Origin: Pyrobaculum neutrophilum V24Sta
Lineage (GTDB): Archaea; Thermoproteota; Thermoprotei; Thermoproteales; Thermoproteaceae
Reading direction: 5' to 3'
Length of the DNA: 64,000 bases
Assembly (NCBI RefSeq): GCF_000019805.1
Contig: NC_010525.1
Coordinates: forward strand, 930,001-994,000
Each line of letters opens with the position of its first letter. Position 1 is the stretch's first letter. The notes below the pieces were generated by a model, which saw only the letters and a list, made by a program, of their open reading frames with translations, searched no databases and had not been told where the DNA came from. Made by a program: the position numbers and the translations under genes. Of the stretch, positions 679 through 63,169 are shown one piece after another.

Positions 679-2498
679 TCAGCCGCCGCAGACGGTACTA
701 CAGGCAAGATTATTTGGTGAACATTTTTCACACAACACACATCCCTTTGGCGATACATAGCTTGTCTGATAGTCGCAGTTTATTTTTCTGAATGGGTCGT
801 ATACGGCTAGTTTTCCTTCTTTGACGAGTGTGGATGTGACGTAGTAGGTCGTGTAGGTGGTGGTGTCTTGTCCGCATCCGACTACTCTGACCGCTTTCAC
901 CACCTCTACTGAGGCTTTCTGGGTGCCCGGCAGATCTCCTGGCTCAACTCTGGTGACGGAGCCGGTGCTGTTTATGGGTATGTAGCTGGGGACGCATATG
1001 TCTATCTTCTCCCCGGGGGCGCCGTAGATTAGCCCTGGGGTATTGCTTTTTGACCACTGTGCGAAGTAGTGGGCTTCTCCGTATATTGCGTCGTAGGAGA
1101 CCAGCTTATCTCCGAGGTGTAGGTAGAGGTCGCCTCTTGAGTATATGATTATTTCGACGGCGGTCGGTATTGTGTTATACCATCCGTCTACCGTGTAGCT
1201 CACTAGGCGGAAGCGCGCCCAGGTGTTGACTTTCGCGCGGAGTTTGTATACGTAGGCGCCTGTGGTGTCTACCTTGTAGAGGTACGGCGCGCTTGCGTAT
1301 GAGCCGCCGGTGTAGGTCGGCCCGTTGCCTATGCGTATTGAGATCGAGGCGTTGTTCCATGTGACCGTAACTGTGCCGACGCCTTGTATGTATATCTGGC
1401 CGGGGCTCTGCATGTACGTCTTCTGGAGGCCGGCGTCGTTGTACCAGTAGACGGCGGCGCCGGTGCCGTTTCTATACGCCGCTACTGAGTATATGACGAA
1501 GGGCGTAACTACGCCGAAGGCGCTGTCTTTAGCCTTGGGGCCCGCGGGCATGACGTAGAGTGTGAGGTCTATGTCGGCTGGCGCCGTGGGGGCGGGGAGC
1601 CCATCGAAGCGGACCCAGCCGCTCCAGGTGGTTACACCTTGTTTCAAGGCGATGGCTTTATCGCCGAATTTAACCGCGGCAGGCTTCGAGGCGATGGCTA
1701 CGTCGAAGCCCTGAGGCGCTTTCACGGTCGTGTCCGCCAGCTGGCCGCTGTATATGCGGACGTTGTTTATCCTGACGTCCAGCTGTGTGCCGTTTAAAAC
1801 AGCGACGAGGTAGACCCAGTGATATACGACCGAGCCGAGAAGCTGCACGTCCCCAGTCCACCCGCTGTACGTGCAAGACGCCCAAAATGGATAGGTATTC
1901 CATTGGTATGTGTACTCGCTTCTGCAGTTGCTACAGGGGAGGTCTCTGACGGTGGCTGTATCTCCAGGCTTTAGGACAAACAGCTGGGGGCCTGTAGGGT
2001 TAGCAACCTTGTAGACCGTATTAAAAGTACATTGTGGTCCGAAGGTGCCAAATTGATAGTCGTACCTAACTGGCACGTCTGTTGTGCTTACAGTGCCGAC
2101 TAGCTTGTAGAGGCTGTCTGTCTGTGAGCCTGGGGCCGGCGGGTTTACGTAGACTGTATAGGGGTATGGGCCTATGTTTGTACCGCTACTTGGAAGGAGC
2201 CTGAGCGGAAGAAGGCGGCTAGCACCGGCACCGACTTGTAGAGGTGGTAGTCTGCCACGTAGTCTGCGTATTCCACAAGCTCCCGGATAAACTCCGCGTT
2301 GACCTCACTCGCGACGACCTCCCTCTTTATACACACAGGCGTCCACGTCTGCGCCCTGGTGGCTACGCCGTAGCTGGTCACCACTGTGACGTTTGCCCCG
2401 CATGGGACAACGGCGAGCCAGGTGCCGTTGGGCGGGACCTGCTTATACACCGAGAGGGTGCGGAGCGTCCCGTTGTAGGCGTACGACACCTCCCTCAC
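679..2498 (-). pseudogene. Frameshifted, N-terminally truncated extracellular protein gene
   Basis: Two adjacent minus-strand frames read as one protein. The upstream piece (2498-2172, 108 codons from a GTG) ends at a TAG. The downstream piece (stop at 679) is open well upstream of its first GTG at 2076, and its sequence before that GTG is protein-like (PYPYTVYV, then Pro-rich). Joining them needs a single extra A in the AAA run whose complement lies at 2177-2179. The product is Tyr/Thr/Gly/Val-rich with many sequons and a Cys-rich C-terminus (CDYQTSYVSPKGCVLCEKC), typical of a disulfide-stabilised secreted beta protein. No signal peptide or convincing start is found upstream of 2498; that frame continues as a Pro-rich stretch toward 2620. 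It is either a decaying gene or a sequencing indel in a gene with an unseen start. Function unknown. Confidence 0.6.
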
Positions 2499-2616
2499 CG
2501 TGGCGTTGCAGGCTTTTGTAGGTGGGGCTGTCAGCGTTTGGCGGGGGGTGTTGTAGGCTTTTGAGGGGGGTTGGTGGTGTTGGTTTTGTTGACCGGAGAA
2601 TGGGGAAAAAGGGGGG

Positions 2617-2877
2617 TTATTTTTTGAGTTCTTCGATTCTCCTGTCTATGTCCTTTAGCACCACCTCTGTTATGTACCGCCTCAGCTCCTCTAGATATCT
2701 AAGCTCTGTCTCTTTGCTCCACTGGGTGGGGCCCCACGTGCCGGCGGCCCACATCCCCCAGTAGCCTGGCCTTAGGTGGGGCGGTAGGTGGCTCCACGGC
2801 CCTCTTCCGGGGCCGCCTCCCCAGCTGTGGCAGCCTCCAAACCACTTCCACCAGCCCATATGTGAAACGTGTTTCAC
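2617..2877 (-). CDS. DUF5320-like small Gly/Trp-rich protein
   Basis: 86 residues in two parts: an N-terminal half rich in Gly, Trp, His and Pro (KHVSHMGWWKWFGGC, then Gly/Pro repeats) and a C-terminal amphipathic helix rich in Glu, Arg and Lys (about residues 55-86) that is likely to form a coiled coil. This organisation matches the DUF5320 family, which is commonly found beside DUF134 proteins, as here. The ATG at 2877 lies inside a perfect inverted repeat (2860-2879), so expression could be controlled by a repressor bound over the start. The gene follows the DUF134 gene with a 16-nt gap and is probably in the same operon. Biochemical role unknown. Confidence 0.6.
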   Translation of the reverse strand: MKHVSHMGWWKWFGGCHSWGGGPGRGPWSHLPPHLRPGYWGMWAAGTWGPTQWSKETELRYLEELRRYITEVVLKDIDRRIEELKK

Positions 2878-2879
2878 AT
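2860..2879. promoter_or_regulatory. Perfect 9-bp inverted repeat over a start codon, operator candidate
   Basis: Arms ATGTGAAAC and GTTTCACAT are separated by GT. The core TGAAAC-NN-GTTTCA recurs at 2918-2931, 55 bp away centre to centre. The site covers the ATG of the DUF5320-like gene and lies just downstream of the DUF134 helix-turn-helix gene. Autoregulation by that protein is an inference. Confidence 0.55.
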
Positions 2880-2893
2880 GTATTTATGTTTTT

Positions 2894-3226
2894 CTACTGG
2901 GGCTCTCCGTCTCTACATGAAACAAGTTTCAGGGGGAGCCTCTCCGTGAGGGCTTTGGCCACCTTGTGGCGGGCTTGTTCAAGTATTCTCCAGAGGGTTG
3001 CCTTTGAGACGCCTATTTTCTGGGCGGCTTCTTCGGTGGTGAGGCCGGCGACGTGTATTAGGTACATGGCCTCCAGCTCGTAGCTACATAGCTCTACGTA
3101 GTGGGTTGGGCGGAGTCCGGGGGCCTCCCTGAGGGGGATGTATAGGGTTTCTTCGTGGGGGAGGGTGGGGGTGGGGCGCGTCTTCGCGCCGGCGTGTCCC
3201 CAGCGGTGGCGCCTGCGGTGGCCCAT
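2894..3226 (-). CDS. DUF134-family helix-turn-helix protein
   Basis: 110 residues from the ATG at 3226, which shares its A with the TAA of the upstream gene (TAATG), so translation is probably coupled. The N-terminus is basic (RRRHRWG). Residues from about 45 follow the DUF134 pattern: SYELEAMYLIHVAGLTTEEA, then a recognition-helix region GVSKATLWRILEQARHK, then a KVAKAL helix. DUF134 proteins are small sigma-like HTH DNA-binding proteins of bacteria and archaea. A longer frame starting at 3451 overlaps the upstream gene and is rejected. A second copy of the TGAAAC-NN-GTTTCA palindrome lies within its 3' end. Confidence 0.75.
   Translation of the reverse strand: MGHRRRHRWGHAGAKTRPTPTLPHEETLYIPLREAPGLRPTHYVELCSYELEAMYLIHVAGLTTEEAAQKIGVSKATLWRILEQARHKVAKALTERLPLKLVSCRDGEPQ
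2918..2931. promoter_or_regulatory. Second TGAAAC-NN-GTTTCA palindrome
   Basis: This 6-bp perfect inverted repeat with spacer AA has the same arms as the core of the site at 2860-2879. It lies inside the end of the DUF134 coding region. Two copies 55 bp apart suggest a cooperative operator pair; no binding evidence exists in the sequence itself. Confidence 0.4.
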
Positions 3227-3648
3227 TAGGGTTTTTTGAGGGCGAAGGGCCTGCCCTGGGTCAGTATCTTGTCTGCTATGTCTGGGGCGGCTTTTTTGAG
3301 GTCTTCGGCTATGTTCTGTAGGAAGGCGAGCTCCTCCTTCTCGTTTCTGAGCTCGTCTGGGAGCATCCTGGGTATCTCCTCGATTATTGGGTACCACCTG
3401 CCGCAGGTTGGGCAGTAGATGACGCCGGTCTCTATCTCCCACCTGTGGCACTCCTCGCAGGGGAGGGCCTCGGGCTTGGGGTGCTCCTTTATCTTTAGGT
3501 CGCGGTAGGAGCAGTACTCCTCGCAGAAGGGCTTGCGGGGCCAGGTGTACTGCCTCTCGGGGTGCTCCGTCCGCTTTATCGCGATGAGGCGGAGGGGGAA
3601 GGTCTTGTCGTAGGGGCAGGCCAGGACGTCCATCAGCCTGTATTTCAT
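3226..3648 (-). CDS. Trm112-like zinc-ribbon protein (methyltransferase activator type)
   Basis: 140 residues. The N-terminus MKYRLMDVLACPYDKTFPL is the Trm112/UPF0434 signature, and later Cys pairs (CEECHRW and CPTCGRW, followed by YPIIEEIPRMLP) complete the zinc-ribbon-like fold. In archaea and eukaryotes Trm112 binds and stabilises several tRNA, rRNA and protein methyltransferases. This protein is longer than bacterial YcaR-type members because of a central insertion, as in archaeal homologs. An AT-rich box (about 3669-3677, overlapping the end of the upstream gene) lies about 25 nt before the ATG. It is translationally coupled to the DUF134 gene downstream. Confidence 0.8.
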   Translation of the reverse strand: MKYRLMDVLACPYDKTFPLRLIAIKRTEHPERQYTWPRKPFCEEYCSYRDLKIKEHPKPEALPCEECHRWEIETGVIYCPTCGRWYPIIEEIPRMLPDELRNEKEELAFLQNIAEDLKKAAPDIADKILTQGRPFALKKP

Positions 3649-3670
3649 AGGGGCGAGAAGGTTGCGAAAT

Positions 3671-4591
3671 TTAAATATGCCGGGGACCCGCGAAGAGGGC
3701 GTATAGCCTTCTGAAGGCGGGGGGCCTGGGGGGGTAGGCGGCCGACTTTATCACCACGAAGGCGTTGACGAGGGCTCTGTATTCGAAGCTCCTCGCGATT
3801 CTCTCGTGGAAGCCGTCGAGGGAGGGGAAGCCGTACTGCGCCAGGAACCTCCGCAGCTCCTCCAGCTCGCCGTCTTTGGGCTTGGCTCTGCCGAAGTTGA
3901 CGGGGCGGTCTGTGACGTGGCGCTCGCCGCCTCCCGGGAGGAGGACCTTGCCGTAGGCGGCCTTGAGGCGCCATGTGGCGCTGTCTGTGCTGTCTACCCC
4001 CAGGGCGGCTAGTATGGGGGTCACCGAGGGGCTCCCCATGCCCAGCACGTGTAGCGCGCCTCTGAACTCCTCCCTTGCCCTCTTTATCAGGGAGAGGGCG
4101 TGTTGCCGCGACCCCCTGGGGGCGCCCCTGGTGATTAAGACGTAGGGGACGGCGGCGCCTATGGCTAGGGCTGGGGCGTCTCTGTACAGAGCGAGGTACC
4201 TCTCGAAGAGGGCCTCGTCTCTGTAGACGTGGAGGACAGGCACTACGGCGTCTCCCACGGCTCTCCTGAGCTTGAGCCAGTTCTGGTAGGACTTCCTCAT
4301 CTTCTTCTCGGCGGCGTCGGGGGGGTCCGAGGGGGAGGGGGGCACGTCTAGGGAGAGGTAGAGCTGGGCGTCTACCCTTCTGTATATCTCGGCGATTTTG
4401 TCCACGTCTATGGAGAGACCCCTCTTGAGTATCTGGTAGCCCCCCGAGTCCACCCAGAGCTCCCCCTCGTAGCCGAGGGCGGCGCGGGGGTCGCGGCGTA
4501 TGTCGAGGGCGTTGACCATGACCCCCGGCACGTCGAAGTGGTGCCAGGGCTTTGGGACGGCGGAGAGCGGGCTGCCTAGGACGACTCTCAC
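3671..4591 (-). CDS. tRNA-guanine transglycosylase superfamily protein (TGT/DpdA-like)
   Basis: 306 residues. The motif VDSGGYQILKRG near residue 48 corresponds to the DSGG(F/Y)Q motif with the catalytic aspartate of TGT enzymes. Later segments LSLDVPPSPSD, HVLGMGSPS and GVDSTDSATW fit a TGT TIM barrel. TGT enzymes exchange a guanine for a 7-deazaguanine in tRNA; DpdA relatives do so in DNA. The canonical C-terminal zinc site (CxCxxC...H) is not visible and there is no PUA domain, so this is not a standard archaeosine TgtA. A minus-strand TATA-like element at 4610-4618 gives a leaderless start at 4591. It may act on tRNA (a QueF-like enzyme lies at 35111-35455) or on another nucleic acid; the substrate is undetermined. 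Confidence 0.7.
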   Translation of the reverse strand: MRVVLGSPLSAVPKPWHHFDVPGVMVNALDIRRDPRAALGYEGELWVDSGGYQILKRGLSIDVDKIAEIYRRVDAQLYLSLDVPPSPSDPPDAAEKKMRKSYQNWLKLRRAVGDAVVPVLHVYRDEALFERYLALYRDAPALAIGAAVPYVLITRGAPRGSRQHALSLIKRAREEFRGALHVLGMGSPSVTPILAALGVDSTDSATWRLKAAYGKVLLPGGGERHVTDRPVNFGRAKPKDGELEELRRFLAQYGFPSLDGFHERIARSFEYRALVNAFVVIKSAAYPPRPPAFRRLYALFAGPRHI

Positions 4592-50448: not shown

Positions 50449-51810
50449 CTAGCTCTTCCCGTAAAAGACGTAGTCGCTAACCGCAACCCCGGACTCCCCC
50501 AGCCGCCTCCTCAGCTCCCCCGGGTCGGGAACAGCCTCCGCCCGGGTCCCCCCGGGGCCTCTAGACAGGAAGTAGATCCTCTCAAGGTCCACCAGGTCCA
50601 CAACCACGGGGGAGTGCGTGGCGAGGAGAACCGGCACGTCAAGCCCGTTAAACACGTCCACGACGTACTCCAGAAGCCTCGCGTGCATGCTGTTCTCCAC
50701 CTCGTCCACGAGGAGCAGCGAGGGCCCCAGATCCACCGCCAGCATCAGCACCACCAGCTTAAGCAGGCCGTCGGGGATGTTGGAGGGGGGAAGCTCCACA
50801 TCCCCCTCCCTGGCGACAAGGAGGGCGCTGTTGTAAAGCTGCCTAACCTCCAACACGACGCCCGGAAAGAGGACGGCCAGAGCTCTGTCGACAGACTCCG
50901 GGTTCCTCCCAAACCTCCCCCTGTAGCTAAACAGCACCGCGGCCACGTTCCGCCCCCGCTCATCAAGCACATCCCCGCCGGCGATAGGCACAGGCTCCAC
51001 ACGCTTCTCCACATGACGGAGAAAGACCATCCTCCCGAGAACCCACCTCACGGCTCCCAAGACATCATCCAGACAGAACCCCAGCGGCGGCCCCACGCGG
51101 ACCCCCCTCGGCCTCCTGGCCCTCCCCAACGCGACCGGGTACGGCAGGAGAGTCCCCCCGGCGACTTGGCTACACGCCAGCAAGTCCTCCGACGCCCACC
51201 CCCTCGGCCCCGGCCACAGCACGAGCCTAAGGCCCTCGAGGTGTAGCGGCGCCTCCATGTCCCACCTATACGAGACGACTGCCCTGCCGCCCTCCTCCTT
51301 GGGCTCGGCCAGTTTGAAAGGTATGTGTTTCATATTTTCCTTGATCCACTTCATCGCCCTGTCGAAGTCCTCCTTTGGGGCCGTGATGGCGATGCCTCCT
51401 CTGTCTATCTCCGCCTGGGTGTCGCCGATTTTCACCACGTGGCGGACGGGCTCAATCGTCTCGTAGGGCTGCGGCCTGTACCTGAGGTAGGTGGTGAACT
51501 CCGCGTAGGCCGACAGCCACTCCCCGCCCGCCTCGCCGTAGAGCTCCAGGCCCAGGCCAAGCGCCACCTCCCGCCTCGGGTCCCGGCCGTAGATCACGTC
51601 AAGCGGCGAGAGGTAGTCCGGCGCGTGTGGGAGATACGGCGAGGCCGCCTCCACCAGAGCCCTCCTGGCGAACCTAACCGCCTCCAAGACGTTGGACTTC
51701 CCAGCCCCGTTCGCCCCCACCAGGAGGTTCACCCCCGGCCTCAGCTCAAGCTCCAGCTCCCCGATACTCTTGAAATTCCTAACGACGACCTTCCTAACAA
51801 ACACATACAC
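50449..51810 (-). CDS. RecF/OLD-like AAA ATPase
   Basis: 453 residues from a GTG at 51810, about 23 nt after an AT element (51828-51837); longer frames to 52218 are rejected because they run through the non-coding stretch. The N-terminus VRKVVVRNFKSIGELELELRPGVNLLVGANGAGKSNVLEAV is the ABC/SMC-like Walker A. The C-terminus has SLLLVDEVENSMHARLLEYVVDVFNGLDVPVLLATHSPVVVDL (Walker B and D-loop). This AAA_21/OLD-type family includes defence and repair ATPases; no nuclease (TOPRIM) domain is seen here. Confidence 0.8.
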   Translation of the reverse strand: MYVFVRKVVVRNFKSIGELELELRPGVNLLVGANGAGKSNVLEAVRFARRALVEAASPYLPHAPDYLSPLDVIYGRDPRREVALGLGLELYGEAGGEWLSAYAEFTTYLRYRPQPYETIEPVRHVVKIGDTQAEIDRGGIAITAPKEDFDRAMKWIKENMKHIPFKLAEPKEEGGRAVVSYRWDMEAPLHLEGLRLVLWPGPRGWASEDLLACSQVAGGTLLPYPVALGRARRPRGVRVGPPLGFCLDDVLGAVRWVLGRMVFLRHVEKRVEPVPIAGGDVLDERGRNVAAVLFSYRGRFGRNPESVDRALAVLFPGVVLEVRQLYNSALLVAREGDVELPPSNIPDGLLKLVVLMLAVDLGPSLLLVDEVENSMHARLLEYVVDVFNGLDVPVLLATHSPVVVDLVDLERIYFLSRGPGGTRAEAVPDPGELRRRLGESGVAVSDYVFYGKS

Positions 51811-51827
51811 ACATGCGCCATATTCCC

Positions 51828-53030: not shown

Positions 53031-53130
53031 ACGGAGAGAAGTGTAGGGAAAATAAATATGGCGGCTTCTCCAAAGCAAGCCCGCCTTCGATTCCCACTTG
53101 TGACAGTTTGCATTTACTTTACTCGTTATG

Positions 53131-53140
53131 TTTATATTTT
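53131..53140 (+). promoter_or_regulatory. TATA element of the ATPase-nuclease cassette
   Basis: TTTATATTTT, centred about 23 nt before the ATG at 53158, in a markedly AT-rich 60-nt region. Confidence 0.6.
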
Positions 53141-53157
53141 ACTTTCTTCAAAGGATT

Positions 53158-53604
53158 ATGTATACAATTACCACATATGAAAAGCGGCGGACCTACACAG
53201 TAGTTGCGTATGTGGGCACTGCGGTCTTGGTGCGGCGGGGGGTTCCGAAAAAGTTGGTAGAGCAGGTTCTACGCGGCGCAGCCCCGCGGAAGAGGTGGTT
53301 GGGCGGAAGAGCTGCGTCCTACAAGTCTGAGGCGGGCGCAGTATTAAGGCTCTTCCCACTTGACTACTTCGCCCAGTTTTGCACAGACGGTCTGAGGCTG
53401 CCGTACGTAGATGAGCTCATGAAGGCCGCATACAAGTCGGGACTTCTGGACCTACCAGTTAGGCCGGGGACTATAAAGGTGTGGATCGAGAAGGGACTCG
53501 ACGGCGTTGCAGACGAGGATGAAGACATCGACCCGAGGTGCTTCATACGCCGATATGGGAAATACCACCTAGCCACACCCCCATGGTGTTGCACAGGATC
53601 ATGA
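53158..53604 (+). CDS. Unknown small protein, first gene of the ATPase-nuclease cassette
   Basis: 148 residues. It has a basic N-terminus (YEKRRTYTVVAYVG) and a central PRKRWLGGRAASYKSEAG region, then an acidic segment (DEDEDIDPRCFIRRYGKYH) and a C-terminal WCCTGS. No family is recognised. It overlaps the next gene as ATGA (53601-53604), so the two proteins are probably made in equal amounts. Both genes stand out by lower GC and different codon use from the surrounding genes. Confidence 0.65.
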   Translation: MYTITTYEKRRTYTVVAYVGTAVLVRRGVPKKLVEQVLRGAAPRKRWLGGRAASYKSEAGAVLRLFPLDYFAQFCTDGLRLPYVDELMKAAYKSGLLDLPVRPGTIKVWIEKGLDGVADEDEDIDPRCFIRRYGKYHLATPPWCCTGS

Positions 53605-55115
53605 CTATGCTCAGACGCGACAGCGTCTGTCAGTGCCTAGAGATCACAGATCCAAGCGGCCATGGCCTAGAATACTTCAACAAATGCCGCTATGTCCCCG
53701 TAAGTGTCGTAGATACAATAATCAACGGCATCCTTGAAGGCGGAATACCGAAACTTTTCATAGTATCAGCTTCGCAGGGATACGGCAAGACAACGGCGTT
53801 CTTATATCTAAGGAAAAAGTTGTTCAACGAGGGAGTCGCAGACGAGGAAAAGAAAATTCACAGATACATTGTGGCGTACACCAAAGCAGACCCAAATCTG
53901 GATCTTATGATGGAGAACATAAAATCCAGCATAAAGCTACAATTTTCTCAATACATACACGAGCGAACCTTACAATCGCTTGCCGTAGAAAAGATCCAAG
54001 GATGTTTTACAGACTTGTGGATGTGGCTTGAGTTCCTCAAGCTAGTCGATTTCCCCGTGGTAGTTCTAATAGACGACGTCAAACCCACAGAACTTGATAA
54101 AGTCGCGGAACTCATACGAGGACTTGCATCAACCGGCATTGTGAAGGCCGTGGCCATCGCCCTGCACGCAGGGTATGGGAAAGAAGTCTCACAGAGACTT
54201 AACGAGATAGGAGCGTCGAGCAGATACGACGTTAGAGTTATTACGAACGATCACTTTGTCCCCTCCGGGGGAGCCCTCGAGGAACTAAACAGCTTTACGG
54301 AACAGCTGTTCAAGGACCAAGGCGATTGGCAAGCCATCGCCGAGGTATTCAAAAGCCTATTCTACAATTTCGGCGCCCGCGTCGCCCTTAAATTCGCAGA
54401 GGCATACCGATGTAAACGCAAGGAGGACAAAGGCGATCTAGCCCTCCTATCTAACAAGATCAGAGATGCGCTTCTAGAAGCGGCCATAAAAGACGGCTTG
54501 CCAGCTCAACGCGAGAAGGAAGTGGCCCCCCATAGAAAGTGCGACGTCGTAATCCAGAACAAGTGCGTAGAGGTTAAGGTGGTAGGGGACCCAAACTACG
54601 AGCTTAAGAAAGAAGGCTACAGCCCAGACCTATACCTCATCGTGGGTAAACAAGCCGGCATTAAAAACGCCGTCGTCGTTGATATAAACGCGCGAAAGCT
54701 CACCTCTGCTCTAGATAAATCGCTTGGGCTAACGCCCAACGATATGGCAAGCGCGGACAAGGGACGTGTTTATGAGCTAGCCGCGCGCGCCATAGTCGGC
54801 TACGTCAAGGACAAAGTTTACGAGGCGTTAAACGTCCATCCGAGACGCACCAGCGAAGTCGTCGAAACAGTAAAGAAGCTGTGCATCCAAATTGGCCTAT
54901 CGGAAATCAATAGGAGCGAGCTAATTAGGCGCTACGGCACAATTCTCAAAGAACTATCAAGAAAACTAGGCATCCCAGCGCCGACAAAAGCGTCAGATGT
55001 AGACACACTCATAAACGCCCTAGCTCAGTACTACACAGGAAACGGCTTAGGCACACCGCCACTGAGGAAAAGCGACGATTCACGGGTCAAATGCGTAGCA
55101 ACAAAAAGCATGTAA
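53601..55115 (+). CDS. P-loop ATPase fused to a PD-(D/E)XK-like nuclease domain
   Basis: 504 residues from the ATG at 53601, overlapping the previous stop. Walker A reads VSASQGYGKTTAFLYL near residue 52, and Walker B FPVVVLIDDVKPTEL near 150. A region near 310 reads HRKCDVVIQNKCVEVKVVGDPNYELKKEGYSPDLYLIV, with D, then E-V-K, then the pattern of a restriction-endonuclease-like fold. The C-terminus is helical and basic. No homolog is recalled. AT-richer codon use than in the neighbours suggests acquisition. Together with the 148-residue protein it may be a defence or plasmid/virus-related cassette. Confidence 0.7.
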   Translation: MTMLRRDSVCQCLEITDPSGHGLEYFNKCRYVPVSVVDTIINGILEGGIPKLFIVSASQGYGKTTAFLYLRKKLFNEGVADEEKKIHRYIVAYTKADPNLDLMMENIKSSIKLQFSQYIHERTLQSLAVEKIQGCFTDLWMWLEFLKLVDFPVVVLIDDVKPTELDKVAELIRGLASTGIVKAVAIALHAGYGKEVSQRLNEIGASSRYDVRVITNDHFVPSGGALEELNSFTEQLFKDQGDWQAIAEVFKSLFYNFGARVALKFAEAYRCKRKEDKGDLALLSNKIRDALLEAAIKDGLPAQREKEVAPHRKCDVVIQNKCVEVKVVGDPNYELKKEGYSPDLYLIVGKQAGIKNAVVVDINARKLTSALDKSLGLTPNDMASADKGRVYELAARAIVGYVKDKVYEALNVHPRRTSEVVETVKKLCIQIGLSEINRSELIRRYGTILKELSRKLGIPAPTKASDVDTLINALAQYYTGNGLGTPPLRKSDDSRVKCVATKSM

Positions 55116-55220
55116 AACAGACGCGCGGCGCAACGCCAACCCAGCGCCCAGACCTCCCGGCACACCGCCTTAAGACCCCTTCTAGAATGTCCGCAACGTA
55201 CAACCCGCCTTGAGCCTCCC

Positions 55221-55237
55221 CCAACGCCGCGCGTTGG
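55221..55237. terminator. Perfect 7-bp hairpin after the ATPase-nuclease gene
   Basis: CCAACGC and GCGTTGG flank CGC, about 105 nt after the stop at 55115. It is GC-rich without a long T-run, so it is a weak terminator candidate, or an RNA feature of the promoter region that follows. Confidence 0.35.
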
Positions 55238-55247
55238 AGGAGCAATG

Positions 55248-55255
55248 TTTATAAA
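55248..55255 (+). promoter_or_regulatory. TATA element of the ABC-2/HTH operon
   Basis: TTTATAAA, centred about 26 nt before the ATG at 55277. The left arm of the 11-bp inverted repeat begins immediately after it at 55256. Confidence 0.65.
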
Positions 55256-55306
55256 CTTCACTATCAGTTTAACTTGATGGTGAAACAGTATGTTTTGATA
55301 GTGAAG
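55256..55306. promoter_or_regulatory. 11-bp inverted repeat spanning the start of the ABC-2 operon
   Basis: CTTCACTATCA (55256-55266) and TGATAGTGAAG (55296-55306) are perfect arms 29 nt apart. They bracket the expected transcription start and the ATG at 55277. A repressor or the HTH protein encoded at 56844-57161 could bind both arms and loop or block transcription. Confidence 0.6.
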
Positions 55307-56101
55307 GGGGTGTGGAAGTTCTTCGGCGGGGTGGTGGCCAACGAAGACGTGAGCCTCCGGGCGGGGGAGGGGGAGGTGGTGTCGGTGCTGGGGCCGAATG
55401 GGGCGGGGAAGACCACCCTCCTGAGGCAGATATACGGCGAGCTTAAGCCCGACAGAGGCGTCGTCCAGATCGCCGGCCTCAGCCCCAGGAAGGCGAAGGA
55501 GAGGGGGCTGGTGGGGGCGGTCCCCCAGGAGGCGTCCCCCTTCCACGGCCTCAAGGTGGTGGAGCATGTGGAGATGGCCGCGAGGCTTCGGGGGGTTCCC
55601 AAGGGGAGGGCCAGGGAGTGCGCCAGGGAGGCCATATACGCGGTGGGGCTCGGGGGGCGGGAGAGGGATTTGGTGATGAGCCTCTCCGGCGGGATGAGGA
55701 GGCTGGTGCTGGTGGCGTCGGCAATGGCCTGCAGGCCCAAGCTTATACTGCTTGACGAGCCCACCGCCGGGGTAGACGTGCAGAACAGGCGGAGGATCTG
55801 GGAGGCTGTCAAAGCCGCCAAGGAGGCCGGCTCCGCCGTCGTGTTGACCACCCACTACATCCACGAGGCCGAGGAGCTCAGCGACGTCGTCTATCTGCTA
55901 AACAGGAGAGTTCTGATGCGGGGGGCGCCGGCCGAGCTCAAGAGGCTCCTCCCCTGGGTCGAGGTGAGGACCGACGACCGCGTCGTTAGGGTGGAGTGGG
56001 ACAAGGCGGTGGAGATAGTGGCGGAACTCGCCAGGCGGAGGGCCAGGTTCGAGCTGAGGGAGCCCACGCTCGAGGACGTCCTAACCGCCGTCTGGCCATG
56101 A
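55277..56101 (+). CDS. ABC-2 exporter ATPase with HTH operon
   Basis: 274 residues from the ATG at 55277. Walker A GPNGAGKTTLLRQI is near residue 43, the Q-loop VPQEASPFHGL near 84, the signature LSGGMRRLVLVASAMA near 137, Walker B LILLDEPTAGVD and the switch His TTHYIHEA. The C-terminal 50 residues form a DrrA-like extra domain. It is an ABC-2 type exporter subunit followed by its permease with ATGA overlap, then an HTH gene and three small genes. Substrate unknown. Confidence 0.85.
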   Translation: MVKQYVLIVKGVWKFFGGVVANEDVSLRAGEGEVVSVLGPNGAGKTTLLRQIYGELKPDRGVVQIAGLSPRKAKERGLVGAVPQEASPFHGLKVVEHVEMAARLRGVPKGRARECAREAIYAVGLGGRERDLVMSLSGGMRRLVLVASAMACRPKLILLDEPTAGVDVQNRRRIWEAVKAAKEAGSAVVLTTHYIHEAEELSDVVYLLNRRVLMRGAPAELKRLLPWVEVRTDDRVVRVEWDKAVEIVAELARRRARFELREPTLEDVLTAVWP

Positions 56102-56838
56102 GGCTCGGCAACGTCCTGGTCATCGCCAAATACATGGTGCTCGCCACGAGGGGGTGGCACATAACCCTGGCGTGGTTCATGGTGCCCTACCCCCTCCTCT
56201 GGCTGTGGCTACTGAAGCTGGTGGGCTACCCAACCTACGTCGAGCACTTCGTCGTGGGGACCGTCCTCTCCACCGCCTTCCAGATGCCCTACGTCGTCAC
56301 CGCCCAAGACGTCGCCTCCATGAAGCACTGGTCTAGGCAGTACTCCCTCCTCCTGGCAAACGGCGCAGACCACTTGGAGATAGCCCTCAGCTACCTGGCC
56401 CAGTCCACGGCGACTACGGCGGGCGCCTCCGTCCTGTTGCTGGCCGCCTCCGCCGCCGTCGCCGGCGTGGCCTACGGCCCCGCCCAGGTGGCGGCCGCGG
56501 CCGGGGCCTCCGCCCTCATCTCGGCAGCCTCCTGCCTCCTCGGCTACGCCCAGGCGATAGGTATAAGAAACCCCGCGTTGTCCCAGCAGATGGCCCAGAT
56601 CGTGCCGTTGCTCCTCATCTTGGTAGCCCCCGTGTACTACCCCGCGGACCTCCTCCCAGAGCCTCTGAGGGCCGCCAGCCACCTCCTCCCCACCACCTAC
56701 ATGGCCTACGCCCTCCGCGGCGCCCTCGCGCTGAACCCCGAGGAGGCCGCCAGAGGAGCCGCGGGCATCCTGGCATACGCCGCCGCCTCGGCGCTTGTGA
56801 CGATATACGCCGTGAGGAGGGAGCAGAGACATGGCTAG
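56098..56838 (+). CDS. ABC-2 exporter permease
   Basis: 246 residues from the ATG at 56098 (ATGA with the ATPase stop); an upstream in-frame start at 55996 is inside the ATPase gene and rejected. About six membrane helices are predicted, with an Ala-rich core and a basic C-terminus (VRREQRHG). It forms the membrane part of the exporter. The adjacent HTH gene follows after 5 nt. Confidence 0.8.
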   Translation: MRLGNVLVIAKYMVLATRGWHITLAWFMVPYPLLWLWLLKLVGYPTYVEHFVVGTVLSTAFQMPYVVTAQDVASMKHWSRQYSLLLANGADHLEIALSYLAQSTATTAGASVLLLAASAAVAGVAYGPAQVAAAAGASALISAASCLLGYAQAIGIRNPALSQQMAQIVPLLLILVAPVYYPADLLPEPLRAASHLLPTTYMAYALRGALALNPEEAARGAAGILAYAAASALVTIYAVRREQRHG

Positions 56839-56843
56839 CGTAG

Positions 56844-57161
56844 ATGTCTTCTCCGGAGGACCTGCTACGGGTCGCCAAGGCGCTATCCCACCCCCTACGG
56901 CTGAAGATACTCCTCCACCTAGCCAGAAGGCCCACCTACATCCAGGACATAGCCCAGACCCTCGGAATCCCCTACGCGCTGGCCCACATGCACCTCAAGG
57001 TGCTGGAGGAGGCCGGCCTGGTGGAGGGGACATACGTGGTGGAGGAGAAGCCCAAGCCCCACCTCCGGAAGATCTACCGCCTCCGAGACTTCAAGCTGGT
57101 GGTAGACAGGCAGGTCCTGGAGGAGCTGGCCAAGTCCCAGGACTCCCAGCGGGGTCGATAG
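56844..57161 (+). CDS. ArsR/HTH_20-type winged-helix regulator
   Basis: 105 residues. The pattern RVAKALSHPLRLKILLHLARRPTYIQDIAQTLGIPYALAHMHLKVLEEAGLVEG is an ArsR-family winged helix. No metal-binding Cys is seen, so it may respond to a small molecule or to a protein partner. It lies in the operon it probably controls; the 11-bp inverted repeat at 55256-55306 is a candidate operator. Confidence 0.85.
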   Translation: MSSPEDLLRVAKALSHPLRLKILLHLARRPTYIQDIAQTLGIPYALAHMHLKVLEEAGLVEGTYVVEEKPKPHLRKIYRLRDFKLVVDRQVLEELAKSQDSQRGR

Positions 57162-57166
57162 CCGCC

Positions 57167-57478
57167 ATGCTGGCGTCGTCCCTAATAATCGGGGCGGGGG
57201 TGCCCGTGGCCCTCTTCTATATAGCCTACAAAACCGCCTCCTGGGTCTTCCTAGCCGCCGCGGCCCTCCTGGGAGCCCTCGCCATATTCTGGGGCGCCGT
57301 GATGGCGCTGGCGGCCTTCGTCCCCATACTAGACTACGTAGACGCCCTAGCCGAGGAGAGGGGAAGCCGCCTCAACGCCTACAGAGCCCTCGCCAGGAGC
57401 CTCCTCGAGGAGCTAGACGAGGTCAACGCCGTCCTCAAGGAGATAAGAGACGAGCTGAAGAGACTGGGCGAGACATGA
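57167..57478 (+). CDS. Membrane protein with two TM helices and a C-terminal coiled coil
   Basis: 103 residues from the ATG at 57167. Two hydrophobic helices (about 4-24 and 29-55) are followed by a charged helical tail (YRALARSLLEELDEVNAVLKEIRDELKRLGET). No family is recognised. The next gene overlaps as ATGA, and the tail is similar in character to the following 39-residue helical protein, suggesting a small complex at the membrane. Confidence 0.7.
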   Translation: MLASSLIIGAGVPVALFYIAYKTASWVFLAAAALLGALAIFWGAVMALAAFVPILDYVDALAEERGSRLNAYRALARSLLEELDEVNAVLKEIRDELKRLGET

Positions 57479-57594
57479 CCGAGCTGAAATACGCCCAGGC
57501 CGGCGACGAGGAGGTCCTCCAGATGATCAGACAGAGGCTGAGAGAGATGAGGCAGCTCCTCGCCGAGATAAGGGAGATGCTCAAGGTCAAGTAA
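57475..57594 (+). CDS. 39-residue helical microprotein
   Basis: An ATG at 57475 overlaps the previous stop as ATGA. The frame ends with TAA at 57592-57594, which overlaps the next ATG as TAATG. The product is a single charged helix (QMIRQRLREMRQLLAEIREMLKVK). The exact start/stop overlaps on both sides make this short frame very likely real. It probably pairs with the coiled-coil tail of the upstream membrane protein. Confidence 0.75.
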   Translation: MTELKYAQAGDEEVLQMIRQRLREMRQLLAEIREMLKVK

Positions 57595-58043
57595 TGGCCG
57601 AGAAATTCGACAGATACTACGAGTACTACAGCCGCAGGAGGAGGGGGCCGCGCACCATAAACCTAGGCCTCGTCAAGCTCAACCTGGGGGGAAGACCATC
57701 CATAGAGGTCAGGGGAATCCCCAGGAGGCCCAGAGGCCCCCCCGGCGGCACAACCCTCGAGACGGCCGAGGGAGAAGACGTAGCCCTCAAAAACGCCGTC
57801 GTCCAGCGGGTCGCCGGCAGGCGAGTCAAACTCTACAACTGCGATGCGGACTACGTCGAAGGAGAAGAGGTAACCCTAATCAACACACACGCCAAGGAGG
57901 TCACAGCCACCAGGGCAAAACTCATCAACAGCCACGTAAAAGTCCTGAGATACAGAGAAAGCTACACCGCAACCAACTCCGTCGTGGAAAAGCCAGAAAA
58001 AATCGCCGAACACCAACGAGGACGCCCACAGACGCCGCAGTAG
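57594..58043 (+). CDS. Protein with beta-solenoid-like repeats
   Basis: 149 residues. The N-terminus is Tyr/Arg-rich (FDRYYEYYSRRRRGPR). Residues 55-135 repeat every 12-15 residues with the pattern hydrophobic-x-N-x-hydrophobic (ALKNAVV, KLYNCDA, TLINTHA, KLINSHV), as in short parallel beta-helix or bactofilin-like domains. It is the last gene of the ABC-2/HTH operon and overlaps the 39-residue gene. It may form a scaffold or polymer; no homolog is named. Confidence 0.65.
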   Translation: MAEKFDRYYEYYSRRRRGPRTINLGLVKLNLGGRPSIEVRGIPRRPRGPPGGTTLETAEGEDVALKNAVVQRVAGRRVKLYNCDADYVEGEEVTLINTHAKEVTATRAKLINSHVKVLRYRESYTATNSVVEKPEKIAEHQRGRPQTPQ

Positions 58044-58234
58044 ACCCCCCTCCCACTCCCCCCACCCCCCCCCCCACCGACAAGCAGACCCCGCAGGGAC
58101 CCCCGCCGCACCCCACTCCCTCCGCCAAAGGGCCCACACCCCGCGGCCGCAGGCGGCCGAGCACCCCGGGACGGCGCCCACATGCCGAAGGCACAGCAAA
58201 AGGCCCCTATAGCACCCCCCAGCGCGGGCGGCAA

Positions 58235-58629: not shown

Positions 58630-59748
58630 ATGCGGGTGGCCATCAGAGACTTCAAAAGCGTCGCACACGCCGAGCTGGAGATAGCCCCCCTCACCATACT
58701 GATAGGCCCCCCGGCCGGCGGCAAGTCAAACATACTAGACGCCCTCGCCGTCTTGGGCTACCCCGCCAGGCTCCTACGCCTAGACGAGGAATACGGCGGC
58801 GCTAAAAACGCCCTGGAGCCGTTGGGACTGGTTGCCAGGTACACGGACCCCAGAGCCCTCTTCCGAAACTACGACCTAACCAAGACCCCAACCGTGGAGA
58901 CGCCCAAATACTCCGTCTCCATCCACTACAGGCGGGGCCTACAGGTGAAGGCAGGAGACGCGACAGCCGAGATAAATATGGAGCACCTCACCGGTGAGGG
59001 CGACCTGGCCCCCCTCCAGGACATCCTCGTGGAGACCCGCCTCTACGGATACGACAGATACGGCCTGCCGGCCACGGGGTGCCGGCAGGGCCACTGCGGC
59101 TTCTACGACTACCTAACCACCCAGGTGAGGTTCACCCCCCACAACATCCTAAGCGACCTCGGCTGGAACATACGCCGAGTCATCAGGTACACCCCAGACG
59201 TCGTGAGGGAGATCAACGAAGCGCTTTCGGAAAGGCTCGGCGAGAAGATAGAGCTCAAGGTGTCCAAGGACGGCGCCATCGCCATCTACGACTACGACTA
59301 CGAGGTTACGTCGCCCTCCGTATCCGAGGCACTATTCCGGCTGATCTACTACCTAGCCGCTCTGAGGTCCGCCGCCAGCTACGCCAAGCTCCACGGCCTA
59401 GAGGGGCGCCTCGTCGCCGCGCTGGAGGAGCCCGAGGCGCACATATTCCCCTTCCTCCTGGACCTGCTCGCCGACCACATCGCCCAGGCCGCCTCCACCG
59501 TCCACGTGGTGCTCGCCACCCACAACCCACTCCTCGTCTCAGCCCTATGGGACCGCGCCGCCGGAGTCAAAACATACTACATCCACCGCGACAAACACGG
59601 CGCCACAACCGCCGCCGAAATAGACATAGAGAAAATGGCACAGGACCTGGCCACCGCCGAAGACATCATGCTCACGCCCCCCGCCGAAATCCTCGCCAAA
59701 TACGCCAAAAGCCCCGCGACGCCAAGCGCCACGCCAACCGCCGCCTAG
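58630..59748 (+). CDS. AAA_21/OLD-like ATPase
   Basis: 372 residues. The N-terminus VAIRDFKSVAHAELEIAPLTILIGPPAGGKSNILDALAVL has an SMC/OLD-type Walker A (GPPAGGKS). The C-terminus has LVAALEEPEAHIFPFLLDLLADHIAQAASTVHVVLATHNPLLVSALW (Walker B and H-loop). The middle has a CRQGHCGFYDY segment that may bind metal. No TOPRIM domain is present. The protein ends in an Ala/Pro/Thr tail. The next gene continues in another frame, so the pair may be a two-component ATPase system. Confidence 0.8.
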   Translation: MRVAIRDFKSVAHAELEIAPLTILIGPPAGGKSNILDALAVLGYPARLLRLDEEYGGAKNALEPLGLVARYTDPRALFRNYDLTKTPTVETPKYSVSIHYRRGLQVKAGDATAEINMEHLTGEGDLAPLQDILVETRLYGYDRYGLPATGCRQGHCGFYDYLTTQVRFTPHNILSDLGWNIRRVIRYTPDVVREINEALSERLGEKIELKVSKDGAIAIYDYDYEVTSPSVSEALFRLIYYLAALRSAASYAKLHGLEGRLVAALEEPEAHIFPFLLDLLADHIAQAASTVHVVLATHNPLLVSALWDRAAGVKTYYIHRDKHGATTAAEIDIEKMAQDLATAEDIMLTPPAEILAKYAKSPATPSATPTAA

Positions 59749-59813: not shown

Positions 59814-60191
59814 ATGATACTGGCCAAAGTCGCAGAGAAAAAAGGCTGCAACGCGGAGGGCCCAACACTCCTGGTCATAGACTACGAACTGGGTGACGCC
59901 AGAGTCTACATCGAGGAAAACTTCGACATCGTCGAGACCAACGCGCAGTGGAGCACCCACCTGGCGCGGTTCAGGAGGTGCCAAAACGTCGCCGCCGTGA
60001 TCTTCGACCCAGCGATAGACCACGAAAAAGGCCCAATATGCAGAGCAGACCCCAACCTCTGCCAAGGCGACAACAGGAGGAGGATCAAGTCAAAAGACGC
60101 ATGCCGCCAGCTCGGCGAGGTGCTGAACAACCACCTCCAGCCGCTAGTCGCCTGGATAGCCCAAAACATCCCCAAACTCTACACATGGTAA
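59814..60191 (+). CDS. Partner protein downstream of the AAA_21/OLD-like ATPase
   Basis: 125 residues from the ATG at 59814. Protein-like sequence in the same frame continues upstream to about 59720 (AEQLRNHGFITNLRHAGNYGRD) but has no normal start codon; that frame is minus one relative to the ATPase. The body reads GPTLLVIDYELGDARVYIEENF and VAAVIFDPAIDHEKGPICRADPNLCQGD, which resembles a nucleotide- or metal-binding alpha/beta domain with conserved Asp residues. It may start at a rare CTG, be joined to the ATPase by frameshifting, or begin at the ATG. It overlaps the end of the 996-residue gene by 13 nt. Confidence 0.55.
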   Translation: MILAKVAEKKGCNAEGPTLLVIDYELGDARVYIEENFDIVETNAQWSTHLARFRRCQNVAAVIFDPAIDHEKGPICRADPNLCQGDNRRRIKSKDACRQLGEVLNNHLQPLVAWIAQNIPKLYTW

Positions 60192-63169
60192 AAGAACAGC
60201 CTCAGAAACGCCCGCTTCGCCTCCAACTCGTCGCGTCTCCTCAGCGCGTCGGCGAGCTCGCCGAAGAACTCTCTAGTTCTAGTAACACCAAATTTATTTT
60301 CGAACTCAGCGAGCTCAGCGGCCGCCTCCCAGTCGCCGTGTAGGTAGAAGACAGCCGCGCGGAGAAACTGCTGGAGGGAATCAGCCGCGTATTTCCACGC
60401 CTCCCACCGATCTACTTTCGCCTTTTTCGCCAGCTGGTATCTGCGGCTGTCCCCCTTTGAGATGGCGTCGTACAGCTCCTCTATTATGCCGGCGGCGTGG
60501 CGCCACACAGCATTCACCCTTGGATCAGCTATGCTATCTATTACTCTCTTCATGTACTCCAGATCCAACTCCTTTGCCGCCTCTATTGCCTTCTCCACGT
60601 AGTTGCGGTCACACATGGCAAGGATGGCTAGAGCCGCCGCGTAGGCTCTTGGATTTTTCATCGATGCTTTCAGCGCCTCCTCGACCTCGCCTCCCCGACA
60701 TCTATTAGGTTGCCCCTCCATGGCCTTAGCCGCCTCAGCCACAGCGAACTGGGCCGCGGCGTCTGCGAAGATCTCCAACGTCAAAAACGGCTCCTTCTCT
60801 TTTGCTTCTTTCCAGAGCTTTTGGAAATTCCAACGCTCCCCTCCCACATCCCACTCAAACACCTCCTCCTTGGAGGAGAGGTATGCAATACGGCCAAGGT
60901 AAGATATTGAAGTTATACGGTTTGACTCAATGACATTCCTCCTCAACACCTCTTCGAAGTGCTTCCGCGCCTCCTCCCAAGCGCCTTGGACGAAGTATAC
61001 CCGACCTTTCAGATGGTGGAGGTAACGGCGCCATTCCTTCAGCTGAAGTTCGTACTTCCCCTTGGGGTCTCCGCCCGCTACAGACAGCCACTCCTTCAGC
61101 CCCTCCTCCCGCTCCACGTCCAGCTCCTCCAACTCCCCCAGCACTTCCTCAGCCTCTTTCAAAGCCGACAGCGGGTCGCCGCCTCTGTACATCTCGTACT
61201 CAACCTCAGTGAAGAGGTACTCCAGACGCGCCACCCTCCTCAACGCCCCATCTCCAATCCTCCCCACTAGAGCCTCTGCTCCTTTCAATACTACGTCCGC
61301 CGCCACTGGCCTTCTCTTCGCAACAGCCGTCAACGTCAACGCCTGGAGCGTTTTTACCACGTCGTCGCCCTCAAGCTCTGGAACTGAAAACGGCACGCTA
61401 CCGAGCAATTCCGCAAAATTCCGGAGATAAAGTGCTATCAGATGCGGTAGTTCTTTCGGAAGCCCATCGGCTTTTTTTCCCAACCTTTGCCAGAGCTCCT
61501 CGATGACATTGTTATGGAACTCTAATCCCACGAGCGGCACGTGTTGAAGCGCATATGCGCCCCACCTGAATGCGTGCCTAGCCAACTCCTGTACCTCGTC
61601 GCCGCCGCACCCAACGGTCTTGCACCTCTCCCAGAGCCAAGTGACGTGGCTTAAGGCGCTAAGCAACATTCGGTCTGTGTATTTTCCGCTTTTCTCTGAC
61701 TCCCACGTCAATATTTTGAGTAGTGCCTTCCTAACGAGGGCTTGCTCCTCGCGCGCCTCGTCTAGCGCGTCGACTAGGTGACGCCACTTCCACCACTCCT
61801 TCCTAAGGCTGTAGACAAGCAGTTTCCTACCATCCCACTGCTCCTCATCCCTCTCGACCAGCCAGTGTCTTTCCAGCGACCTAAGCCTGCAACTTTCGAC
61901 GTACTCAAATACCTCCCCGGCGAGCTCTTCCGCAAGCCTTCTGCTCTCCTCGTAACTCTTCGTCAACGACTTTAGGCACATATGGGCACTGCTTGGACAT
62001 AGGCAGGCCAGCTCCTCCTCGGCGGCTTCTCCGTAGAGGAGCGCCGCTAAGGCGAAGTTGTCCTTCCTCAACTTGTCGTATACGGCCTTGATTGCCGCCT
62101 TCATGTGCTGTGCATTTCTCTTTGCCATGTCTTTGTCGCGTGGGTTTGGGGTATAGGCTGTGCCGGGCCTCGGCGCGATCTTCTCTAGCTCCTCTCTGGT
62201 GAACCCCAGATTCACCATGGTCGAGGCGATGTAGATAGAGCCGGCGGACGCCCTGTAGAGAAGGTCGCCGTACCTCTCCCTTACCTTTTCGTACTCCCCC
62301 TCCGGGAGGTTGGCCCTAAGCAACTTCTCGAACTCCTCAGGCTGGGCGGAGTCCATGAAGATTATATTATCTACGTCGAAGAGGCCCGAGGCGAGGCGCC
62401 CGCCCCTTAGCCGGGGGCTTGGGTTAAACAGCGCTTCGTAGACCGCGGCAGGCGGATCCGCACTGCGTGAGAGGATCTCGGCGTATTCGTCATAGTTCAG
62501 TCTTACCACGACCACAACGCGGGCCCCCCTTGCCCAGGCATCCTCAGCCACGCCGACGACCTCGTTCTCACGTCCAACTGCACCTGTCACGTCGTCGAAA
62601 ACTAAGACGAGTCTGTCGTAGCTAGGCTTCTCGCGGAGCACGCGGACAAGTCCCCACACGGACTTAATCAAGGATACCACCCAGCCGAGACCCGGAACCT
62701 CGGCCGCCGCCTCATCCAAGCCGCTCCGCCTCGCCGCGTCCAACACTTTCCGCAACACCGATTCATGCACGCCCAACTTATTGAGAAGGCCCTCTAGAGC
62801 CTTGCGACACTCCTCAGACTGGGGGTCTCGGCATCTATCGTAGATGCGGGCGGCCTCGGGGAGGACGGCGGCGGCCACGTCTAGGTACGTGGCCAGCTGC
62901 CTCGTCGCCGGGGCGGTCAACTTGAGGACGTAGCGCGGCCTCCCCTCGACGTCGTAGGTCACGTGCAGATCGGCGTCGGGCTCCGCCAGGAGCTGCGGCG
63001 AGATCCACACCACATGCCTCCCCTCCCTAGCCGCCGCCTCCAGCGCAACATAAAGCGCCGACGTCGTCTTCCCCACCCCCGGCAACCCCACCACAGCCAG
63101 CGCCCCCCTTCCCAACAGCGCTTTCAGGGCCCCCTCCTCAAACCCCCTAACCACATACCTAAAACCCAC
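60179..63169 (-). CDS. Large STAND-like P-loop NTPase with helical repeats
   Basis: 996 residues from a GTG at 63169, about 25 nt after a TATA element (63190-63197). Walker A AVVGLPGVGKTTSALYVALE lies near residue 26, Walker B YDRLVLVFDDVTG near 188, followed by a sensor-like VVVVVRLNYDEYAEIL. From about 350 the protein is a long run of TPR-like helices (ALKEAEEVLGELEELD, KGRVYFVQGAWEEARKHFEEVL). This is the layout of STAND NTPases, several of which are antiviral sensors (Avs, NLR-like). No nuclease effector is seen at the N-terminus; the C-terminal helices could sense a ligand. Confidence 0.75.
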   Translation of the reverse strand: MGFRYVVRGFEEGALKALLGRGALAVVGLPGVGKTTSALYVALEAAAREGRHVVWISPQLLAEPDADLHVTYDVEGRPRYVLKLTAPATRQLATYLDVAAAVLPEAARIYDRCRDPQSEECRKALEGLLNKLGVHESVLRKVLDAARRSGLDEAAAEVPGLGWVVSLIKSVWGLVRVLREKPSYDRLVLVFDDVTGAVGRENEVVGVAEDAWARGARVVVVVRLNYDEYAEILSRSADPPAAVYEALFNPSPRLRGGRLASGLFDVDNIIFMDSAQPEEFEKLLRANLPEGEYEKVRERYGDLLYRASAGSIYIASTMVNLGFTREELEKIAPRPGTAYTPNPRDKDMAKRNAQHMKAAIKAVYDKLRKDNFALAALLYGEAAEEELACLCPSSAHMCLKSLTKSYEESRRLAEELAGEVFEYVESCRLRSLERHWLVERDEEQWDGRKLLVYSLRKEWWKWRHLVDALDEAREEQALVRKALLKILTWESEKSGKYTDRMLLSALSHVTWLWERCKTVGCGGDEVQELARHAFRWGAYALQHVPLVGLEFHNNVIEELWQRLGKKADGLPKELPHLIALYLRNFAELLGSVPFSVPELEGDDVVKTLQALTLTAVAKRRPVAADVVLKGAEALVGRIGDGALRRVARLEYLFTEVEYEMYRGGDPLSALKEAEEVLGELEELDVEREEGLKEWLSVAGGDPKGKYELQLKEWRRYLHHLKGRVYFVQGAWEEARKHFEEVLRRNVIESNRITSISYLGRIAYLSSKEEVFEWDVGGERWNFQKLWKEAKEKEPFLTLEIFADAAAQFAVAEAAKAMEGQPNRCRGGEVEEALKASMKNPRAYAAALAILAMCDRNYVEKAIEAAKELDLEYMKRVIDSIADPRVNAVWRHAAGIIEELYDAISKGDSRRYQLAKKAKVDRWEAWKYAADSLQQFLRAAVFYLHGDWEAAAELAEFENKFGVTRTREFFGELADALRRRDELEAKRAFLRLFFYHV

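Follow-up and report, generated by a model that had tools for sequence, protein, structure and literature searches.

The window analysed here is the whole 64,000-nt stretch of the Pyrobaculum neutrophilum V24Sta genome (G000 below; contig NC_010525.1, positions 930,001 to 994,000). Near its end lie two overlapping, AT-rich genes, which a first-pass annotation had proposed as a plausible undescribed defence or mobile-element system. This raises the question of what the two proteins are, whether they belong together, and which role would best account for them.

A coupled gene pair of foreign composition

The pair and its signals, numbered from the first nucleotide of the window, are as follows:

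53131..53138, + strand: TATA-like box TTTATATT, recognized from the sequence, 20-27 nt 5' of the ORF1 ATG
53158..53604, + strand: ORF1, a 148-aa partner protein with homologues in G015, G018 and G061
53578..53589, + strand: PPWC tail motif of ORF1, found close to the C-terminal end of every intact partner (as PPWC in type 1 partners, PPW in type 2)
53601..55115, + strand: ORF2, a 504-aa ATPase with a predicted nuclease domain, supported by homologues and profile searches

Both genes were found as described earlier, with the ORF2 start codon (53601-53603) overlapping the ORF1 stop codon (53602-53604) in an ATGA arrangement. Because homologues begin at the same point and the TATA-like box lies at the distance given above, ORF1 most likely starts at 53158; an ATG at 53128 is likewise open, but sits over the TATA box. 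An in-frame GTG at 53586, which overlaps the PPWC codons of ORF1, may be an earlier start for ORF2, and two homologues have the same arrangement. As judged by eye, each of the six intact loci of the family described below has an AT-rich TATA-like element at a similar distance 5' of its partner gene. The pair therefore appears to form an operon of its own with a leaderless mRNA, and in P. neutrophilum the position of the box predicts a leaderless transcript of two genes.

The foreign composition attributed to the pair was borne out. GC content across 53-55 kb is 0.50 and 0.51, as against ∼0.60-0.70 in most of the window, and GC3 is 0.63 for ORF1 and 0.56 for ORF2 compared with 0.86 and 0.89 for the genes on either side. 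The homologues in G018 and G061 have a host-like GC3 (∼0.9), and AT-richness is therefore no family trait but marks the copy in P. neutrophilum as an arrival.

Domains of ORF2 and its partner

Three regions can be distinguished in ORF2:

53769..53792, + strand: Walker A motif SASQGYGKT, within residues 56-64, the same loop in 6/6 members that keep this half
54054..54077, + strand: Walker B motif (..VVVLIDD, residues 152-159), from sequence and family alignments
54438..54725, + strand: putative PD-(D/E)XK-type nuclease domain, approximately residues 280-375, from predicted helix and strands and the motif
54543..54578, + strand: catalytic-type motif D315-x8-E324-V-K326, CDVVIQNKCVEVKV, with D, E/D, V and K in 6/6 members that have the region
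54843..55112, + strand: C-terminal helical domain (RSEL...VD...SRVKC), from the structural model and alignments

The Walker A, Walker B and RKCDVVIQNKCVEVKV motifs reported earlier were all recovered, as was the combination of a small protein with a Walker ATPase/nuclease-motif fusion. The ATPase motifs are kept in each of the six members whose N-terminal half survives, and D-x(8-9)-(E/D)-V-K in each of the six with a surviving nuclease core; one further copy, in G055, is a remnant starting past the nuclease motif. Since the motifs recur in the six members that retain each region, they are not chance occurrences. This holds across considerable divergence, some ORF2 pairs being just 20-26% identical, and the two ORF2 clades can be aligned over their full length (hhalign E 1.2e-10, 448 columns). 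The fusion is best viewed as an ORC/STAND-like ATPase that leads into a PD-(D/E)XK-type domain and then into a helical domain at the C-terminus.

The ORF2 model has a mean pLDDT of 71.5. When its ATPase part was searched with Foldseek, Cdc6/ORC came first (E 3.6e-6), and Pyrobaculum Cdc6, ORC, TnsC and NLRs were matched. The nSTAND_NTPase5 and AAA_16 profiles agree with these fold matches, although both match the ATPase half below their curated cut-offs (AAA_16 at E 6e-6 for the G052 protein). By eye, an 'xLxP' segment follows the Walker motifs, like that of ORC/STAND ATPases. ORF2 thus resembles the STAND, ORC/Cdc6 and AAA_16 ATPases in Walker A, Walker B, this segment and its fold. We nevertheless did not assign it to STAND. 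No STAND, NACHT or AAA_16 model scored above its curated cut-off, no repeat family was matched, and GxP, the motif of the STAND winged-helix domain, was not seen by eye in the ORF2 alignments; in contrast to STAND proteins, which have fused sensor repeats, ORF2 lacks a repeat sensor array and is accompanied by a small separate partner. Profile searches of the PDB gave P-loop or chance matches only.

For the middle domain, a predicted helix (280-297) and strands (302-304, 316-318, 321-327 and 344-348) would fit the alpha-beta-beta-beta-alpha-beta core of PD-(D/E)XK nucleases, at moderate model confidence (pLDDT ∼52-73). As in that superfamily, a helix precedes the predicted beta hairpin on which D-x(8-9)-(E/D)-x-K sits, here as D315 and E324-V-K326. 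Outside the family, the best match of the nuclease profile was the DpnII-MboI-like protein of G116 (hhalign 94%, E 2e-7, in 28 columns only; negative controls ≤0.5%), which was rejected as a family member and serves as a reference for the nuclease superfamily only. Of four other PD-(D/E)XK-type references, three scored ∼3% or less and one 17%, outside the motif. Unlike established members, ORF2 matches no nuclease model in Pfam and can be aligned in the motif region only. Because the outside match is restricted to one protein and 28 columns, the assignment rests mainly on motif and topology; on these grounds the domain likely belongs to the PD-(D/E)XK superfamily and ORF2 is a predicted nuclease. 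The C-terminal helical domain was modelled confidently (residues 421-500, pLDDT mostly 80-93).

The partner, left as unknown by the first-pass annotation, can now be characterized by its conserved C-terminal PPW tail. Type 1 partners (G000, G015, G018 and G061) have invariant residues in common and a G..(Y/W)....PPWC-type tail at the C-terminus, and type 2 partners (G052 and G059) have an N-terminus unlike that of type 1. The C-terminal 98 columns of the two types align, including PPW (hhalign E 2.6e-4, probability 42%), which makes for a modest link between them. PPW within the last 25 residues was found in 3/143 non-overlapping ORFs, all three of them partners, an approximate count because the greedy selection behind the ORF set omits some partners. 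Fold searches with ORF1 against the PDB and viral models returned nothing below E 0.18.

No family in Pfam, NCBIfam, PADLOC or PHROG covers ORF1 or ORF2. Against PADLOC, the two proteins gave nothing beyond weak P-loop matches to the mad8, Nhi and AbiO models, and a literature search found no published description of the pair.

Distribution, pairing and genomic surroundings

A sequence search of 101 relatives recovered both genes in G018 and a copy of ORF1 in G015, the neighbour of which proved to be an ORF2 relative. Profiles added G061 and then the second ORF2 clade (G052, G059 and the G055 remnant). In G018 one frameshift (L034, near 6000) interrupts the ORF2 homologue, which could be a draft-assembly error or decay. 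Alignment A5 contained no stretch conserved enough for a pattern search.

We then searched 398 Thermoproteota genomes with profile A8, built from the nuclease half and C-terminus of ORF2. Seven genomes matched at E ≤5e-35, along with one unrelated nuclease at 2e-4; because six of the seven contributed to the profile or are its source, 7/398 measures rarity and is no independent test. Weak P-loop matches to ORF2 in many genomes were set aside as generic ATPases, and the only one examined in full, in G036 (L068), has neither the nuclease motif nor a PPW partner. The distribution is patchy, unlike that of a housekeeping family, and homologues lacking the nuclease residues, the other outcome that would have spoken against the original reading, did not appear among the six with an intact nuclease core.

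Constant pairing, proposed earlier as a check, was found: the partner lies upstream of ORF2 in all seven genomes with the ORF2 family, six intact and one a remnant. In the six intact loci it is directly 5' and overlaps ORF2 or lies within ∼10 nt of it. In the decayed copy of G055, what is left of ORF2 lies ∼3.5 kb from what is left of a type 2 partner (L077:5010-9338). Conversely, the ORF1 profile matched 4/81 genomes of the class, each with ORF2 adjoining.

The surroundings of the pair in P. neutrophilum include these features:

53031..58223, no strand assigned: strain-specific 5.2-kb segment with the cassette, an ABC transporter and small genes, from comparison with G004
50449..51819, - strand: AAA_21 (OLD/AriA/HEC-01-like) ATPase gene, outside the pair and common to G004
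58630..59748, + strand: second AAA_21 defence-type ATPase gene, common to G004

The near relative G004 is without the pair and has 1.46 kb in place of 53031-58223, containing a GPN-type ATPase and a NifX-like gene, with flanks 90-91% identical. Also absent from G004 is a segment from 59.8 to 63.4 kb with a 996-aa STAND-like ATPase that has TPR-like repeats (60179-63169, - strand) and no PADLOC match. Direct repeats around the cassette were rejected as an att site, being short, GC-rich and away from the boundaries. The AAA_21 genes were likewise rejected as system components: their orientation and presence vary, those of G000 also occur in G004, where the pair is missing, and a separate promoter-like element precedes the pair.

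By a qualitative count, defence-type genes lie near the pair in 5/7 loci. G000 itself has the two AAA_21 genes and the STAND-type ATPase. An AriA-like AAA_21 gene with a small protein occurs near the pair in both G018 and G061 (L034:3157-4972; L044:4694-6395); these are homologous in two genomes of different families, and the small proteins match no family. G018 further carries Cas6, a CRISPR array and a HEPN/nucleotidyltransferase pair. A HEC-01A/Mads-like pair adjoins in G052, and a 1,065-aa TmtA-like gene (sacsin/HATPase with a NOV_C nuclease) is next to the pair in G015 (L035:6977-10174). The expected proximity to defence genes was thus borne out in part: G059 has no recognized defence neighbour within the stretch examined, and the AAA_21 genes of G000 are present in G004 without the pair.

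Between the two Thermofilum-type genomes G052 and G059, identity is 93% over a 4.9-kb stretch that runs up to the junction of partner and ORF2, and it returns to 92.6% past ORF2. Their partners are near-identical, but their ORF2 proteins share only 41% identity. Conserved flanks and partner beside so divergent an ORF2 point to replacement of ORF2 behind a constant partner and not to gradual drift, which argues that ORF2 is the fast-changing, selected part of the pair. The two loci also differ in an OLD-type pair, present in G052 and absent from G059.

Searches for relatives outside this set were negative. Scans of GTDB contigs and IMG/VR for close relatives of ORF2 found none, P0009 and P0010 had no relative in IMG/VR, tblastn against phage and plasmid records found no relative, and a GTDB scan with the partner P0008 returned its own contig only. 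The proposal of an undescribed defence or mobile-element system is partly supported: the pair is unfamiliar to four databases, patchy, consistently paired and located in variable segments, in five of seven loci beside defence-type genes, but its nuclease activity and antiviral role are putative. Of mobile-element hallmarks, neither att repeats at the boundaries nor viral or plasmid homologues were found.

Possible functions of the pair

That the family is rare, divergent and variably located, with a replaced allele and defence-type neighbours, argues for a role in conflict, and the anatomy of ATPase, nuclease and partner argues for a gated nuclease. The explanation we favour, at slightly better than even, is that the two genes form a self-contained module of innate defence against invading DNA, with nuclease activity, docking, trigger and antiviral outcome all putative. 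ORF2 would be a nucleotide-switched effector whose ORC/Cdc6-STAND-like ATPase restrains the fused PD-(D/E)XK-type nuclease; once switched, it would let the nuclease cut DNA, of the invader (virus or plasmid) or of the host. ORF1 would be an obligate partner with a variable N-terminal part acting as sensor or regulator, and its conserved C-terminal helical segment, ending in PPW, would dock on ORF2 and gate the nuclease.

In kind, the pair would belong with ATPase-gated nuclease systems, and the family with its PPW-tailed partner appears to be new. Archaeal ATPase_2-DUF234 and AAA_14-DUF4143 proteins join an ATPase and a PD-(D/E)XK-like domain on one chain, as in ORF2, but ORF2 has no sequence match to DUF234 or DUF4143, and we know of no PPW-tailed partner for those proteins. 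PARIS, Septu, Gabija and HEC-01 (AAA_15/21 plus nuclease) share the ATPase-plus-nuclease logic and occurrence in defence islands. In contrast to these, ORF2 lacks an ABC/OLD-type AAA_15/21 ATPase, has its nuclease fused to the ATPase and shows no homology to them; genes of these types adjoin the pair as neighbours only.

The allele swap allows a more specific and distinctly tentative extension, which we consider doubtful: a constant PPW-tailed adaptor may dock on interchangeable ATP-switched nuclease receptors, with whole receptor genes swapped by recombination exactly behind the adaptor gene. If true, this would be an archaeal immune design not described before, giving the host a sensor-effector that can be exchanged while the docking peptide stays fixed.

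The main rival is a toxin-antitoxin (addiction) pair, with ORF1 as antitoxin and ORF2 as an ATP-dependent nuclease toxin, serving selfish maintenance or abortive infection. We regard it as unlikely, and the data do not tell it apart from a gated immune effector. In every case the small partner precedes ORF2, with the two genes overlapping or almost doing so, the antitoxin-first order of a type II-like two-gene operon; to the eye, type 2 partners look like a helix-turn-helix regulator (with no match in Pfam), the distribution is narrow and patchy, and the HEPN/nucleotidyltransferase pair adjoins in G018. However, effectors of 491-623 aa that combine an ATPase and a nuclease domain are large as classical toxins go, a near-constant partner with two ORF2 alleles 41% identical is unlike tightly co-evolving toxin-antitoxin pairs, and the search of plasmid records found no plasmid carrier.

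It is improbable that the genes are a fragment of an integrated virus or plasmid, their ORC/Cdc6-like ATPase and resolvase-type nuclease acting in the element's replication or recombination. The AT-rich foreign composition, the variable site, Cdc6/ORC as best fold match and a virus-like gene set ∼15 kb off in the same genome would fit such an origin; yet the pair travels without other element genes, its boundaries have no att-like repeats, the G018 and G061 homologues have host-like GC3, and IMG/VR, phage and plasmid collections held no homologue at the sensitivity used. Least probable is a DNA-repair or stress ATPase-nuclease with its regulator, unrelated to conflict: repair does include ATPase-nuclease fusions and no result rules against a repair substrate, but occurrence in 7/398 genomes, divergence to ∼20% identity, allele replacement and defence-gene neighbours all speak against it.

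The innate-defence reading bears on a wider pattern. In a 2026 survey of 7,747 archaeal genomes, Thermoproteota generally had a lower prevalence of known defence systems, with restriction-modification, CRISPR-Cas and argonautes as exceptions (PMC12988326). If the pair is a defence system, part of this gap would reflect systems too divergent for current profiles. The pair makes a small, concrete test case with defined residues (K63, D158, D315, E324 and K326 in ORF2; PPWC in ORF1), and the G052/G059 allele swap is a natural experiment on what the partner recognizes.

CRISPR arrays lie near the pair in both G000 and G018. In G000, a 16-repeat array at G000:C1:994020-995072 (L081:1021-2073) lies just past the end of the window and coincides with the published Crispr7 of P. 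neutrophilum (NC_010525.1, 994025-995068; PMC3396285), ∼9 kb beyond the cassette; in G004 the corresponding site holds a larger array (L079, about 1540-3960). Near Crispr7, L081:5364-9746 encodes a helicase, a PDDEXK_1/Cas4-like nuclease and a weakly Gp16-like ATPase, and looks like an integrated virus or element.
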